Below, piece after piece: positions 7,064 through 32,328 of a stretch of DNA of 32,430 nucleotides. The notes beneath the pieces were generated by a model that saw nothing but the letters and a program-made list of their open reading frames with translations, made no database searches and was not told the origin of the DNA. The position numbers were made by a program, and so were the translations under genes. How positions within the stretch are numbered: the first letter of the stretch is position 1; every line of letters begins with the position of its first letter. Source of the DNA: an uncultured Planctomycetia bacterium (GTDB lineage Bacteria > Planctomycetota > Phycisphaerae > FEN-1346 > JAACEH01). Location of the stretch: the NCBI GenBank assembly GCA_903929765.1, contig CAIYVX010000101.1:1-32430 (forward strand), written 5' to 3'.

Positions 7064-7086
7064 GGTTTTCCCCTTGTTCTTTTATT

Positions 7087-7118
7087 CATGGCGGCAAACA
7101 GCGGCCGCCATGCCACCC
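7087..7118. repeat. CATGGCGG hairpin repeat (family R1)
   Basis: Perfect 9-bp stem CATGGCGGC / GCCGCCATG with an 8-nt loop, followed by CCACCC. It lies between the secretin stop and the TPR lipoprotein start. It is almost identical to copies at 18573-18604 and 27262-27292, all in the same orientation on the plus strand. Confidence 0.85.
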
Positions 7119-7125
7119 GCGTTCT

Positions 7126-14176: not shown

Positions 14177-15241
14177 TCAACTCCGAACCAGACTCACCAG
14201 GGCCGCATCGAATGCCCGTACCGCGCCGCTCTCTAGCCGCAAGACCAGGGCGTAGTCGGGAGATATCGCTTCGACCGTGCCGCGAAATAATCTTGCCCCT
14301 TCCTTGACTGTCACCGCGCGACCGATCATGTCCGAACGGGCCAGGTACTCGGCCATCAAGTCCCCCGCCTCCGCGCCTTCCGCCTGCTGGAGCCGCGATT
14401 CAAGCGCCGCCAGCGTCCGCTCCAACAGCAGCGTCCGGTCCTGCTCTTTTCCAGCGGCCAAAGCCAGCGAAGTGGCCCGCTCGGCGAGTTCCACAGGAAA
14501 CTCCGCCTGGTTGACATTCAGCCCGAGACCGATAACGTAGGGCACGAGCGCCGTCCCAGGCGACCGGCGCTGCCGACCGGCTTCGGCCGACTCGATCAGA
14601 ATGCCGGCGACCTTGCGCCGTTCAATCTCGACGTCGTTGGGCCACTTGATCGTCGCCCGAAGGCCGGTGACCTGGCCAACCGCATCGCAGACGGCGACGC
14701 TGGCCGCGAGCATCAGGCCCGCCTGCGACGCTGTTGCTGTTTCACCCCTCTCCCTTGAGGGGAGAGGGTAGGGTGAGGGTGACATATCTGTCGCCCGCGC
14801 CGCCACGGTCGGCCTCGCCCAGTGCACCACGCTGACCAGGAGGCTCTGCCCGCGCGCCGCCACCCAACAGGCCCCCTGCCGCCCGCGACCCGCCGTTTGC
14901 TCCTCGGCGACGATGGTCAGGCCTTCGGCCTCGCTTTCGGCCGCCACGGCCGCCAGGGCCAGGTCGTTGGTCGATCTGGTCCGCTCATAAATGCGTATCG
15001 TCCGTCCGATCCGACCGTCGCGCCGGGCATAGGCGACTTCATCACGATCAATCGCCTCGGGCGCCCCGGCCAGCCGCAGGCCCATGATCGGATGATGCTC
15101 GAACCGGAACCCGGCCGCCGCCATATCGTCAATCTCGCTATGGATTCGTGATTCAGGCACGCCCGCCTGAGCCGCCAGATCTTCCAGAGAGTGGTAGGCG
15201 GTCGCCTGTCGCCGCAGAGACCAGGTCAGTTGGTAGTTCAT
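14177..15241 (-). CDS. birA: Bifunctional biotin-[acetyl-CoA-carboxylase] ligase / biotin operon repressor BirA
   Basis: 354 residues. An N-terminal winged-helix-like region (about 1-65, SLEDLAAQAGVPESRIHSEI) makes this the two-function BirA type. The catalytic domain has ERTRSTND, the biotinyl-AMP loop AGRGRQG, KWPNDVE followed by KVAGILIES, and IGLGLNVNQ. A BPL_C domain follows at about 305-352. It joins biotin to carboxyl carrier proteins and probably represses biotin genes. Between SVVHWARP and LMLAASVAVCDAV lies an extra stretch, about [14 protein letters not shown], encoded by a 43-bp repeat that also occurs in aroC. It falls in a surface loop of the family, so function may be kept. The start overlaps the nadC stop (ATGA). 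Confidence 0.94.
   Translation of the reverse strand: MNYQLTWSLRRQATAYHSLEDLAAQAGVPESRIHSEIDDMAAAGFRFEHHPIMGLRLAGAPEAIDRDEVAYARRDGRIGRTIRIYERTRSTNDLALAAVAAESEAEGLTIVAEEQTAGRGRQGACWVAARGQSLLVSVVHWARPTVAARATDMSPSPYPLPSRERGETATASQAGLMLAASVAVCDAVGQVTGLRATIKWPNDVEIERRKVAGILIESAEAGRQRRSPGTALVPYVIGLGLNVNQAEFPVELAERATSLALAAGKEQDRTLLLERTLAALESRLQQAEGAEAGDLMAEYLARSDMIGRAVTVKEGARLFRGTVEAISPDYALVLRLESGAVRAFDAALVSLVRS
14741..14783. repeat. Palindromic element R3, in frame inside birA
   Basis: 43 bp with arms CCCTCTCCC / GGGGAGAGGG around TTGA, followed by TAGGGTGAGGGTGAC. It is identical in all 43 positions to 21851-21893 in aroC. Here it is read antisense to its aroC reading and encodes the [14 protein letters not shown] stretch without breaking the birA frame. 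Confidence 0.95.
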
Positions 15242-18171: not shown

Positions 18172-18639
18172 CTACGGTTTCTCCGGCAGCGTGGCCGGGC
18201 CGACCGTCAGGAACGGTCGCAACTCTTCCAGCCGAATCCGCCCGATCCCGCGTACGCCGCCGCGCTCGCCCAGCAAATCTTCCAGCGCCGCGTAGGGCCG
18301 CTGGGCCACGATCCGCCGCGAAAACGTCCCGCCCAAGCCCGGCACCAGGCTCAGTTCGTACCAAGGCGCCCGGTTCACGTCGACCAGGTATAACGACTCG
18401 TCCTGCGCTGCGGCGCGAAGGTCCGCGCCGGGGTCGGCCGGCCCATAAAACAACTGCCCCAACAGCGCCGCTCCGACCACGAACAGGGCGAGGCTCGCCG
18501 TCACGGCCAAGCCGAGACGGTCGCTGCGCACCAGGAACGGCGGGGCCGGCTGGGCACCTCCCCTGCCCTGAACATGGCGGCAAACAGCGACCGCCATGCC
18601 ACCCGTCGCATCCGTTTCGTTTACCGGTATTCTTTCCAT
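18172..18639 (-). CDS. Membrane-anchored helix-hairpin-helix protein (ComEA-like)
   Basis: 155 residues. One membrane segment (about 43-65, LGLAVTASLALFVVGAALLG) precedes a paired helix-hairpin-helix domain (86-144), with VDVNRAPWYELSLVPGLGGT and the second hairpin GVRGIGRIRLEELRPF. Such domains bind DNA non-specifically; ComEA binds incoming DNA in natural transformation. DNA uptake would suit a genome with a pilus machine but is not shown here. The chosen ATG overlaps the GH10-like stop by 19 bp and lacks a clear ribosome binding site. Residues 12-22 are encoded by an R1 hairpin repeat, which also supplies an alternative ATG (residue 15), so the true N terminus is uncertain. Confidence 0.72.
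   Translation of the reverse strand: MERIPVNETDATGGMAVAVCRHVQGRGGAQPAPPFLVRSDRLGLAVTASLALFVVGAALLGQLFYGPADPGADLRAAAQDESLYLVDVNRAPWYELSLVPGLGGTFSRRIVAQRPYAALEDLLGERGGVRGIGRIRLEELRPFLTVGPATLPEKP
18573..18604. repeat. CATGGCGG hairpin repeat (family R1) in the comEA-like N terminus
   Basis: CATGGCGG and CCGCCATG pair around a 10-nt CAAACAGCGA, followed by CCACCC. It differs from the 7087 copy at a single loop-proximal base. It lies inside the predicted coding region, covering about 11 codons ahead of the membrane segment. Confidence 0.85.
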
Positions 18640-21318: not shown

Positions 21319-22569
21319 ATGCTAACCTATCGCACCGCCGGCGAATCGCACGGCAAGGCTCTGCTGGCCATCATCGAGGGCTTTCCCGCCGGCGTGCGGG
21401 CCGACCTGAAATTCGTTGACCGCGAACTCGCGCGCCGCCAGGGCGGCTACGGGCGCGGCGGGCGGATGAAAATCGAGACCGACCGCGTCGAAGTCCTCTC
21501 CGGCTTGCGGCGCGGCGTGACGCTCGGCTCGCCCATCGTCCTCCAGATCGCCAACCGCGATTTCCGCATCGACGACCTGAAACGGACGCCGTCGCTATAT
21601 CAGCCGCGACCGGGGCACGGGGATCTGGCGGGGGCGCTCAAGTATCTGACGCCCGACGTGCGGAACATTCTCGAACGAGCCAGTGCCCGGGAAACTGCCG
21701 CGCGTGTCGCCGCCGGTAGCTTTGTGCGCAGCCTGCTCCGCGAGGCCGGCATCGAAGTCTTCGCTCACGTCGTTTCCGTCGGCTCTGCTTCGGTTAACCC
21801 CTCCCCCTTGGGGGAGGGTGGCCCGACAGGGGCGGGTGAGGGGTTGATTCTTCACCCCTCTCCCTTGAGGGGAGAGGGTAGGGTGAGGGTGACGTTGAGG
21901 CCAGAAACCATTCCCCCCGCCCTGCTGCGCCGCCGCAACAAGAGTCCTCTCTACTGCCTCGACTCCGCCGCCGAAACCGACATGATCTCCGCCATCGACG
22001 CCGCCCGCGACGCCGGCGACACCCTGGGCGGCATCTTCGAGGTCATCGCCACCGCCGTGCCGCCGGGCCTCGGCTCGCACGTCTCCGCCGACCGCCGGCT
22101 CGACGGGCGACTGGCTGCCGCCCTGATGAGCATTCCGGCCATCAAGGGCGTCGAAATCGGCCTGGGCTTCGAAGCCGCGCGGCTCCCCGGCAGCCAGGTT
22201 CACGACGCGATTCTCTACCGTCCGGCCGAGCGCCGCTCTTCCACTCTCGGCTACGCCCGGACCTCGAACGGGGCCGGGGGCATCGAGGCGGGCATTTCCA
22301 ACGGCCAGCCCATCATCCTTCGCGCCGCCATGAAACCCATCGCCACGCTGGCCCAACCCCTGCCCTCTATCGACCTCCGCACCAAACGGGCCGTCAAAGC
22401 CGCCTACGAACGCAGCGACTTCTGTGCGGTGCCCGCCGCGAGCGTGGTCGGCGAGAACGCCGTGGCCTTCGAACTGGCGGCGGCGCTGCTGGAAAAAACG
22501 GGCGGGGATTCGCTGGCGGAGGTGAAGGGGAATCTGGCCACGTTCCTGAAGTTGGCCCGCGAAATGTAA
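21319..22569 (+). CDS. aroC: Chorismate synthase
   Basis: 416 residues, longer than the usual 350-390. It is the final shikimate-pathway enzyme, forming chorismate from EPSP with reduced FMN. Motifs: [14 protein letters not shown] at the N terminus, [60 protein letters not shown], and [15 protein letters not shown]. After HVVSVGSA (about residue 157) about 33 residues, including NPSPLGEGG and HPSPLRGEG, are encoded by two adjacent palindromic repeats. Family motifs resume at SPLYCLD, so the frame is kept. The ATG at 21319 follows AGGA by 7 nt; the upstream in-frame ATG would add 12 Lys-rich residues. The stop is 3 bp before the R2 palindrome. Confidence 0.96.
21796..21844. repeat. Palindromic element R3 variant, in frame inside aroC (first of two)
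   Basis: Arms CCCCTCCCCC / GGGGGAGGG around TT, then GGCCCGACAGGGGC and GGGTGAGGGG. This is the same layout as the 43-bp R3 element 7 bp further on, but with a GC-richer stem and an added spacer. It encodes about [16 protein letters not shown] of chorismate synthase. Confidence 0.85.
21851..21893. repeat. Palindromic element R3, in frame inside aroC (second of two)
   Basis: Identical over 43 bp to 14741-14783 in birA. In aroC it is read on the plus strand as [14 protein letters not shown]. The full identity despite opposite coding strands suggests recent spread or active homogenisation. Confidence 0.95.
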
Positions 22570-22572
22570 TTT

Positions 22573-22636
22573 GTAGGGTGCGTGCTTGCACGCACCACGC
22601 GGGCCAAAGAATGGTGCGTGCAAGAACGCACCCTAC
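22573..22636. repeat. 64-bp near-perfect inverted repeat after aroC (family R2)
   Basis: Two 25-bp arms match at 24 of 25 positions around a 14-bp loop. The left arm begins GTAGGGTGCGT and ends CACGCACCA. Each arm also contains a smaller hairpin (GGTGCGTGC / GCACGCACC). It would form a very stable RNA hairpin 3 bp after the aroC stop. Single arms recur at 23130-23154 and 32346-32359. Confidence 0.92.
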
Positions 22637-22657
22637 GAACCGTTCGAGAGGTGAAGT

Positions 22658-23129: not shown

Positions 23130-23154
23130 TGGTGCGTGCAAGCACGCACCCTAC
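23130..23154. repeat. Single R2 arm between the GspG-like gene and recJ
   Basis: 25 bp, 24 of 25 identical to the right arm of the palindrome at 22612-22636 and in the same direction. It forms its own hairpin GGTGCGTGC / GCACGCACC. It ends 17 bp before the recJ start, where no clear ribosome binding site is present. Confidence 0.88.
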
Positions 23155-23171
23155 ATAGAGTTTTAGAAATC

Positions 23172-27225: not shown

Positions 27226-27261
27226 GAAAACGCCTCCCGTTGGCACGTCCCTTCGGCGAAA

Positions 27262-27292
27262 CATGGCGGCAAACAACGGCCGCCATGCCACC
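27262..27292. repeat. CATGGCGG hairpin repeat (family R1)
   Basis: CATGGCGGC pairs with GCCGCCATG around AAACAACG, then CCACC. It lies between the kinase stop and the thpR start and has the same orientation as the other R1 copies. Confidence 0.85.
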
Positions 27293-27297
27293 AGTTA

Positions 27298-31134: not shown

Positions 31135-32328
31135 CTACTCCACCGTGATCAAGGTAACTTCCGGCGGCGAAAACAATCGCACTGGCGGTCCCCACGTCCC
31201 TGTCCCCCGATGCACGTAAATCTGCGGCCCCTCGCCCGCCGGACCCGTCGCGTACCGCCCCGCAAAAAGTGGATAAATCCACTTCACCACCAGGTGAAAC
31301 GGAAATACCTGCCCCCCATGCGTATGACCCGAAAGCTGCAAATCAATATGCCCGACCGACCTCGCCTCGATCCGCGGCTGATGCTTCAGGAGAATGGTCG
31401 TTGCCCCCTCCCCCTTGGGGGAGGGGGGCCGCTTTAGCGGCCGGGTGAGGGTTTGAAGCTCTATGCTCCCGTCACGCCAAAGAGCTTCCTCCTCCGCAAA
31501 ACACTCCACCCTCTTCATCCCCTCCCCCGCCGGATCGTCCACACCTGCGATCCGCAACCCCTCCATCACCGTCGCCGCCGTGCCGCGCAGCACCGTGAAC
31601 CCCGCCGCCTCGTGAAACCGCAGCGACTCCGCCACCCCGGCGTAAAACTCGTGATTGCCCAGCACCGCGAACTTGCCGCGCGGCGGATTGATCTCCCGCA
31701 ACTCCTCCGCGAACCACCGGATATTCTCGAACGCCGAATCCGTCAGATCCCCCGTCGAAATCAACACGTCCGCCTCGGCCTCGCGCACCAACTCCAGCAC
31801 CCGCCCCAGCCGCCGCTGCCCCATGTGCACGCCCAGGTGCAGGTCCGAAATCTGGAGCAGCTTCAGCCCGCGCACATTTTCCGCCAACCCCGGAATCCGA
31901 ATCGTCACCCGCTTCAGCCGAATCCGCTGCGCCCCCAGCACCCCCGCCGCCAACCCGACCGCAATCACCACGCACGCCGCCGCAAACCCCGTCCGATGCG
32001 TGATCGTCGCCGCCAGGATTCCCGGCCACTTCATCCCCAGCGCCGCCACCGCCAGGTTCCACGCCCCCGCCGCCAGCGCCAGCGAGCAGAACCAGAACAG
32101 CCCCGCCATCCACAAATACCCCGGCAGCGCCGCCGCCTGGGCCCATCGGAATTTCAGCCGCCGGTCCAGTTGCACCACAATCACCGGCGCCAGAAACATC
32201 AGCGTCAGAAATCCATAAATCGGCGCCCGCCACCACCCCAGCCCCGCAAAAACCTGGTCCACCTCCCAACCCAGGTAAACATACATCGCCGCATAGATAA
32301 ACAGGATTACGATCAGAAATACCGGCAC
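31135..32328 (-). CDS. Membrane-anchored metallophosphoesterase (YkuE/YaeI-like)
   Basis: 397 residues. The GTG start follows GGAGG. Four membrane segments (about 3-20, 35-53, 65-95, 114-133) precede a calcineurin-like phosphoesterase domain (155-397). All metal ligands are present: D162-x-H164 (SDLHLG), D194 (GDLTD), N225-H226 (GNHE), H316 (KHQP), H335-x-H337 (GHTHGG). Relatives include lipid-linked phosphoesterases such as UDP-diacylglucosamine or phosphatase-type enzymes; the substrate is unknown. Residues 294-310 ([14 protein letters not shown]) between GSIEL and the KHQP motif come from an R3-type palindromic repeat in frame. Codon use is G-ending, unlike the nearby sulfatase-fold gene. 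Confidence 0.92.
   Translation of the reverse strand: MPVFLIVILFIYAAMYVYLGWEVDQVFAGLGWWRAPIYGFLTLMFLAPVIVVQLDRRLKFRWAQAAALPGYLWMAGLFWFCSLALAAGAWNLAVAALGMKWPGILAATITHRTGFAAACVVIAVGLAAGVLGAQRIRLKRVTIRIPGLAENVRGLKLLQISDLHLGVHMGQRRLGRVLELVREAEADVLISTGDLTDSAFENIRWFAEELREINPPRGKFAVLGNHEFYAGVAESLRFHEAAGFTVLRGTAATVMEGLRIAGVDDPAGEGMKRVECFAEEEALWRDGSIELQTLTRPLKRPPSPKGEGATTILLKHQPRIEARSVGHIDLQLSGHTHGGQVFPFHLVVKWIYPLFAGRYATGPAGEGPQIYVHRGTGTWGPPVRLFSPPEVTLITVE
31404..31451. repeat. Palindromic element R3 variant, in frame inside the metallophosphoesterase gene
   Basis: Two adjacent palindromes, CCCCTCCCCC / GGGGGAGGGG and GGCCGCTTTAGCGGCC, then GGGTGAGGG. Layout and flanks match the R3 copies in aroC. 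It is read on the minus strand and keeps the frame. Confidence 0.85.

Follow-up and report, generated by a model that had tools for sequence, protein, structure and literature searches.

Tandem triplex-motif-like repeat elements in frame within the chorismate synthase gene of an uncultured Phycisphaerae-like bacterium

The chorismate synthase gene aroC of an uncultured Phycisphaerae-like bacterium carries 99 extra bases that consist of two direct repeat elements, here called A and B, lying side by side in this order, and the reading frame of the gene is unbroken across both. Very likely, this tandem pair belongs to the intrastrand-triplex-motif (TM/PIT) family, is of non-coding origin, landed in a tolerant loop of the enzyme, was filtered for reading frame and is mostly neutral, with A probably arriving first. 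In-frame intragenic palindromic repeats are already known, both from REPs (PMC3733652) and from the palindromic elements of Rickettsia; what is new here is the presence of triplex motifs in coding frames, their hairpin-loop subtype and their direct pairs. No previous description of triplex motifs inserted in frame into coding sequence turned up in a literature search that covered few subscription journals.

An insertion into a variable loop of AroC

The window, a stretch of 32,430 nucleotides, is contig C101 of a 3.83-Mb genome in 116 contigs (G000). The aroC gene occupies positions 21319-22569 on the + strand and encodes a protein of 416 amino acids with a match to Pfam PF01264 at residues 2-391 (E 5.9e-112); it is the only recognisable copy, no second chorismate synthase having been found in this 96% complete assembly. 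The insert comprises 33 codons (S158-R190, at about 21790-21888, + strand, give or take a few codons at either end). Both the Pro/Gly/Glu/Arg-rich composition and the size of about 33 added residues given in the original prediction were borne out, the latter by a count between the flanking anchors: 48 residues in this AroC, 15 in its nearest relative, 14-20 in the remaining aligned relatives. An AroC match is present in all 52 good-quality genomes searched, and alignments to the matched relatives typically stop at residue ~157 and restart at ~200 of this AroC. The insert is missing from 29 aligned relatives as well as from all 41 homologues in a wider alignment of 42 sequences that reaches other phyla, and nothing in the solved chorismate synthases found by sequence matching corresponds to it. 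The nearest named AroC relative, from a Phycisphaerae metagenome-assembled genome, is 66% identical, which makes an uncultured planctomycete close to that group the most likely host. Strains with zero or one copy had been proposed as a check; none was seen among same-genus genomes, and the zero-copy state is found in the only same-family genome compared, which has no element at the aroC site. Taken at the level of sequence, these comparisons show that the elements entered a pre-existing aroC and left its frame intact.

Could the loop instead be ancestral to, or have a function in, the AroC of this lineage? In favour of this, the loop keeps the reading frame and the ORF is unbroken; but it is missing from the same-family genome and from every other aligned homologue, its DNA is part of a repeat family found across the genome, intergenic regions included, and the segment is predicted to be disordered. 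The homologue alignments, all without the insert, led us to reject this reading, whose probability is minute; the expectation of the original prediction that the loop is not ancestral thus held.

The insert falls in the least conserved stretch of the protein, since the 42-sequence alignment contains no nearly invariant column from G155 to I226. In an AlphaFold2 model of AroC (pTM 0.90), which aligns with the best solved chorismate synthases at TM-scores around 0.9 on target, the insert sits between strand 146-154 and helix 200-208, and pLDDT drops below 50 only at residues 162-191, a segment modelled as disordered. The encoded peptide would most likely be a tolerated disordered loop without an enzymatic role; that the insert is neutral, and that it is translated into protein, we infer. 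It is scarcely credible that aroC is a pseudogene and its insert a sign of decay: nothing beyond the insertion itself points that way, against which stand the intact frame, the full Pfam match, the conserved invariant residues, the high-confidence fold and the lack of a second copy in the genome at its given completeness.

A repeat family with three arms

Element A (21796-21845 including the outer arms, + strand) is triplex-motif-like, with eight of nine canonical triads and a mini-hairpin (GCCC-GACAG-GGGC) in its second loop; its stem is formed by CCCTCCCCC (21799-21807) and GGGGGAGGG (21810-21818), and its third arm is GGGTGAGGG (21834-21842). The element B unit (21848-21894, + strand) reaches nine of nine canonical triads, has the second loop TA and ends with ...GTGAGGGTGACG; its layout is CCCTCTCCC-TTGAG-GGGAGAGGG-TA-GGGTGAGGG, with the stem arms at 21856-21864 and 21870-21878 and the third arm at 21881-21889. 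The linker (21846-21855) ends with TTCTTCAC, which is typical of the 5' side of B units. The sequence and the coordinates of two different adjacent elements, as originally predicted, hold, with A and B being subtypes of one family; the predicted distance of 7 bp, by contrast, varies with the choice of element ends, the gap between the matched cores being 12 nt. At this linker length, A and B are each kept in a stop-free frame; the claim of a preserved frame was confirmed in the sequence.

The family is defined by a C-arm/G-arm hairpin plus the third arm, the second loop being about 15-20 nt long with a mini-hairpin in type A and 2 nt long in type B. The stem of the A mini-hairpin varies in matched pairs (GGCCC/GGGCC, GGCAC/GTGCC, GGCCGC/GCGGCC). 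A T-A to C-G change in the main stem, which turns CCCTCTCCC/GGGAGAGGG into CCCTCCCCC/GGGGGAGGG, leaves the third arm as it is in 20 copies (13 of type A and 7 of type B), at the cost of one triad. Because the third arm does not track the change in the stem, the hairpin appears to be more strictly maintained than the triplex; to go by their sequences, A and B would be hairpin-forming DNA, possibly with triplex formation.

The B pattern has 112 exact matches in the genome and the A pattern 163, vs none for the reversed control pattern in either case, and hence these matches are not due to chance. With a wider pattern there are 321 exact matches here, against 16 in the same-family genome; other members of the order have 1-44. 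The B pattern is also present in 42 of 294 genomes from the phylum, so that the family as a whole is widespread and its expansion lineage-local. Its significance is that this expansion (321 vs 16 in the same-family genome) puts triplex motifs into the coding frames of essential-type genes, in contrast to the motifs previously described as intergenic in E. coli. Copies are also found between genes, where some regions (e.g. L040, L043, L070) consist of several palindrome families in a mosaic, with TTCTTC/GTTGCTG spacers linking them. The element survey sampled about 80 stretches of the genome, picked for containing elements.

Several contigs (C20, C43, C55, C63) have one of their ends within an element or close beside one, which indicates that the elements disturb assembly and raises the question of whether the aroC insert could be a chimera created at a repeat in a metagenome-assembled genome. 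Both halves of aroC, however, stay in one frame and match a single AroC, that of the nearest relative (77% and 71%), and the same insert pattern is seen in more than 12 genes, making a chimera very improbable.

In-frame copies in other genes

Element B is stop-free in only one of its three sense frames, and the A-B composite has a single open sense frame, which is that of aroC. Close direct pairs occur at 26 exact places, seven of them with a 10-nt gap (GTGAGGG to CACCCC) and the others with gaps of 11, 14, 15, 22 or 23 nt. All seven 10-nt-gap pairs fall within long ORFs, of which Pfam supports six (aroC, TauE, PD-(D/E)XK, HTH/S24, BadF and ScpB) while the seventh (L073) has no match, which is the pattern that survival of in-frame insertions would leave; survivorship accounts for part of these frame and spacing statistics, and open frames were part of the basis on which elements were called genic.

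At least 13 Pfam-supported ORFs in the sampled stretches, many of them housekeeping genes, carry in-frame inserts. In the window these are aroC, a birA-like biotin ligase gene (14177-15241, - strand), in which a B element (14741-14783, + strand) lies antisense, in frame, and encodes 14 residues, and a metallophosphoesterase gene (31135-32328, - strand) with an A element (31404-31451, + strand), likewise antisense and in frame. Elsewhere, Pfam identifies as carriers an AddA-type UvrD helicase, PD-(D/E)XK/AddB (probably a single gene divided between two contigs), BadF/DUF2229, HTH/S24, ScpB, TauE, PriA, Lon, DnaX and valyl-tRNA synthetase. For Lon there is a second copy in the genome; none was found for AroC and valyl-tRNA synthetase. 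In-frame insertions with empty sites in relatives offer natural tests of how well enzymes tolerate a disordered loop, and they carry a warning for annotators, as peptides such as two of 13 and 14 residues are translated repeats and not conserved domains.

If the inserts were removed from the RNA or the protein, by splicing or translational bypass, AroC would never contain them, and the tolerance of so many inserts in conserved genes, such as the roughly 265 extra residues of valyl-tRNA synthetase, would be easier to understand. Removal from RNA, however, predicts no constraint on frame or stops, yet the composites occupy their stop-free frames, and we give this alternative next to no weight.

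The valyl-tRNA synthetase gene (L004; G000:C82:71100-73979), the only copy found, contains about 265 in-frame residues absent from relatives, in which the positions matching residues 252 and 518 of this protein are adjacent. The extra stretch is a REP/IS200-type transposase domain flanked by the repeat peptides TGILPVSPTGVPPV and GQDAPATHGQDARATV, and a triplex-motif A element lies further on, at about 694-736. On contig C86 (L097, L113; G000:C86:1-5549), the AddA-type helicase ORF of 1367 amino acids and the nuclease ORF beside it bear four in-frame elements each; several of these elements are preceded by another repeat, read as GGMAAAVCRHES. The DNA behind GGMAAAVCRHES is apparently a second dispersed palindrome, CATGGCGGCAAACAGCGGCCGCCATGCCACC, which in the window occurs at 7067-7120, 18553-18606 and 27242-27295.

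Order of insertion and orientation of pairs

Did A and B enter aroC one after the other or together? The arrangement of A, exactly 12 nt and B is found in five ORFs, in which the B parts are 100% identical and the A parts 80%, while the linkers differ among the five composites. At the aroC site, the tail TTGAGGCCAGAAACC (21895-21909, + strand), which elsewhere normally lies directly 3' of the GTGAGGG(G) of A, stands downstream of B, and a similar tail likewise follows B in BadF. Identical B parts, diverged A parts and a tail of A that comes after B together argue for the order A first, B later, so that, on these sequence grounds, A was probably present first and B was added later at its 3' side. 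Against this order it must be said that B is homogeneous elsewhere too, with 22 distinct sequences in 104 copies.

It is conceivable, if rather doubtful, that A and B formed one composite mobile unit that entered aroC in a single event. The recurrence of the A-12 nt-B arrangement in the five ORFs would fit such a unit, as would the A-A pairs with the same 12-nt gap in two more ORFs (TauE and HTH/S24); it is less easily reconciled with A parts that are only 80% identical between sites where the B parts are identical, with the differing linkers, or with an A-type tail positioned in aroC and BadF as if B had been placed between the A core and its tail. Somewhat more weight is therefore given to A followed by B than to a composite moving as one. 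The pentamer GTTGA is found on both sides of B in aroC (21843-21847 and 21894-21898) and is absent at the other composites, and for this reason no target-site duplication is claimed.

In the sampled stretches, 36 of 36 close pairs have the direct orientation, and at distances of up to 40 bp the count is 25 of 25. Neighbouring elements up to 10 kb apart are, however, mostly co-oriented anyway (89-100% of cases), and direct orientation alone is therefore no proof of seeding; as evidence for local duplication it is weakened by the long co-oriented domains. The original suggestion of a preferred target, or of one element seeding the second, accordingly stands in part: close direct pairs are common, and the contrast between identical B and 80% identical A speaks for it, but orientation does not, and A and B may have spread together. 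Along the element strand, 72 of 80 stretches are biased towards C, a further reason to expect same-direction pairs in any case. Co-oriented element domains extend over tens of kb (e.g. on C39, C1, C62 and C13) and flip inside contigs; the orientation of the elements follows the local GC skew, which in places reaches 0.2-0.36 over more than 10 kb.

Relation to known repeats and possible mobilisation

Intrastrand triplex motifs (TM, TM-ECO or PIT) are high-copy repeats with a three-arm layout (Holder et al. 2015, PMC4666352). The family described here shares with them the layout CCCTCNCCC - GGGNGAGGG - GGGNGAGGG, the high copy number and the lack of a transposase found adjoining. As in TM-ECO, both B (9/9) and the A of aroC (8/9) combine one C arm with two G arms, each of 9 nt, in a pattern of canonical purine-motif triads with at most one mismatch. 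The TM-ECO pattern, however, has a first loop of 3-6 nt and a second loop of exactly 3 nt (PMC4666352), whereas the loops are 5 and 2 nt in B and 2 and 15 nt in A (the second loop of type A generally being about 15-20 nt with its mini-hairpin), and because of these deviations A and B are called TM-like and not strict TM-ECO. Triplex motifs, moreover, are reported to be always intergenic in E. coli MG1655, and the pairs described in E. coli are inverted (PMC4666352), whereas here close pairs are direct and many copies lie in frame inside genes.

Intragenic GTAG/CGTC REPs are palindromic repeats that sit in frame in conserved genes, among which those for DNA repair and replication stand out; often they come in pairs, which lengthen the protein by 20-30 residues (Di Nocera et al. 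2013, PMC3733652). In all these respects, in-frame palindromic repeats in conserved genes, frequent pairing and the prominence of repair and replication genes, the present family is similar, and it too consists of short palindromes in high copy number. It lacks, however, an unpaired GTAG/CGTC at the stem foot, where the 5' side reads TTCAC or TTAAC; GTAG arises in B only across the G arm and the second loop (GGGTAGGG), where A has GTGG. REP pairs are mainly inverted, head-to-head, in contrast to the direct, untagged pairs seen here, and membership in the GTAG-REPs was rejected on both counts, tag and orientation. Palindromes of the form CCCTCTCCC-N2/3-GGGAGAGGG have been described in Enterobacter sp. 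638 with the same hairpin arms and about one hundred copies, but these are reported at gene 3' ends, with a presumed role in transcription termination (PMC2869309).

Rickettsia palindromic elements (RPEs) are in-frame, repeat-derived segments that add an extra peptide to genes that look functional. In-frame insertion into genes whose homologues lack the insert is seen likewise in aroC and valyl-tRNA synthetase; the likeness is one of description, and the present host, an uncultured Phycisphaerae-like bacterium, differs in phylum and lifestyle.

According to the preferred reading of a tandem TM/PIT-family pair, short elements of non-coding origin would have landed in aroC, and their survival would have been aided by a site in a variable loop that strand 146-154 and helix 200-208 flank, by the net length of 99 bp and by a pair that reads through in its one stop-free sense frame, with the A-type element coming first and the B-type element later at its 3' side. 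What might have moved them? Either single-strand (HUH/RAYT-type) transposition or copying coupled to repair may be responsible. Genes for REP-associated tyrosine transposases are present in the genome; of these, L006-L008 score above the NCBIfam cut-off and L002-L003 just under it. Among the eight Y1_Tnp matches, elements lie within ~1.5 kb only of the one inside the valyl-tRNA synthetase ORF and flank none of the others; with this exception the elements do not adjoin RAYT genes, and RAYTs, though conceivable as the mobiliser, are not adopted as such here. One may speculate, tentatively, that triplex-motif repeats are mobile and behave in this lineage like RPEs, entering housekeeping genes in frame with a constant orientation relative to local strand asymmetry, as in single-strand (HUH-type or replication-coupled) insertion.

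Other repeats are present in the window as well. Inverted copies of the palindrome TGTAGGGTGCGTGCTTGCACGCACCA (22572-22639 and 23130-23155) flank the gene after aroC, and a perfect 7-bp tandem repeat of AGGCTTA lies between two pilus-type genes (1366-1435); CCTTAAG runs, similar to this repeat, follow some of the element-rich intergenic regions.
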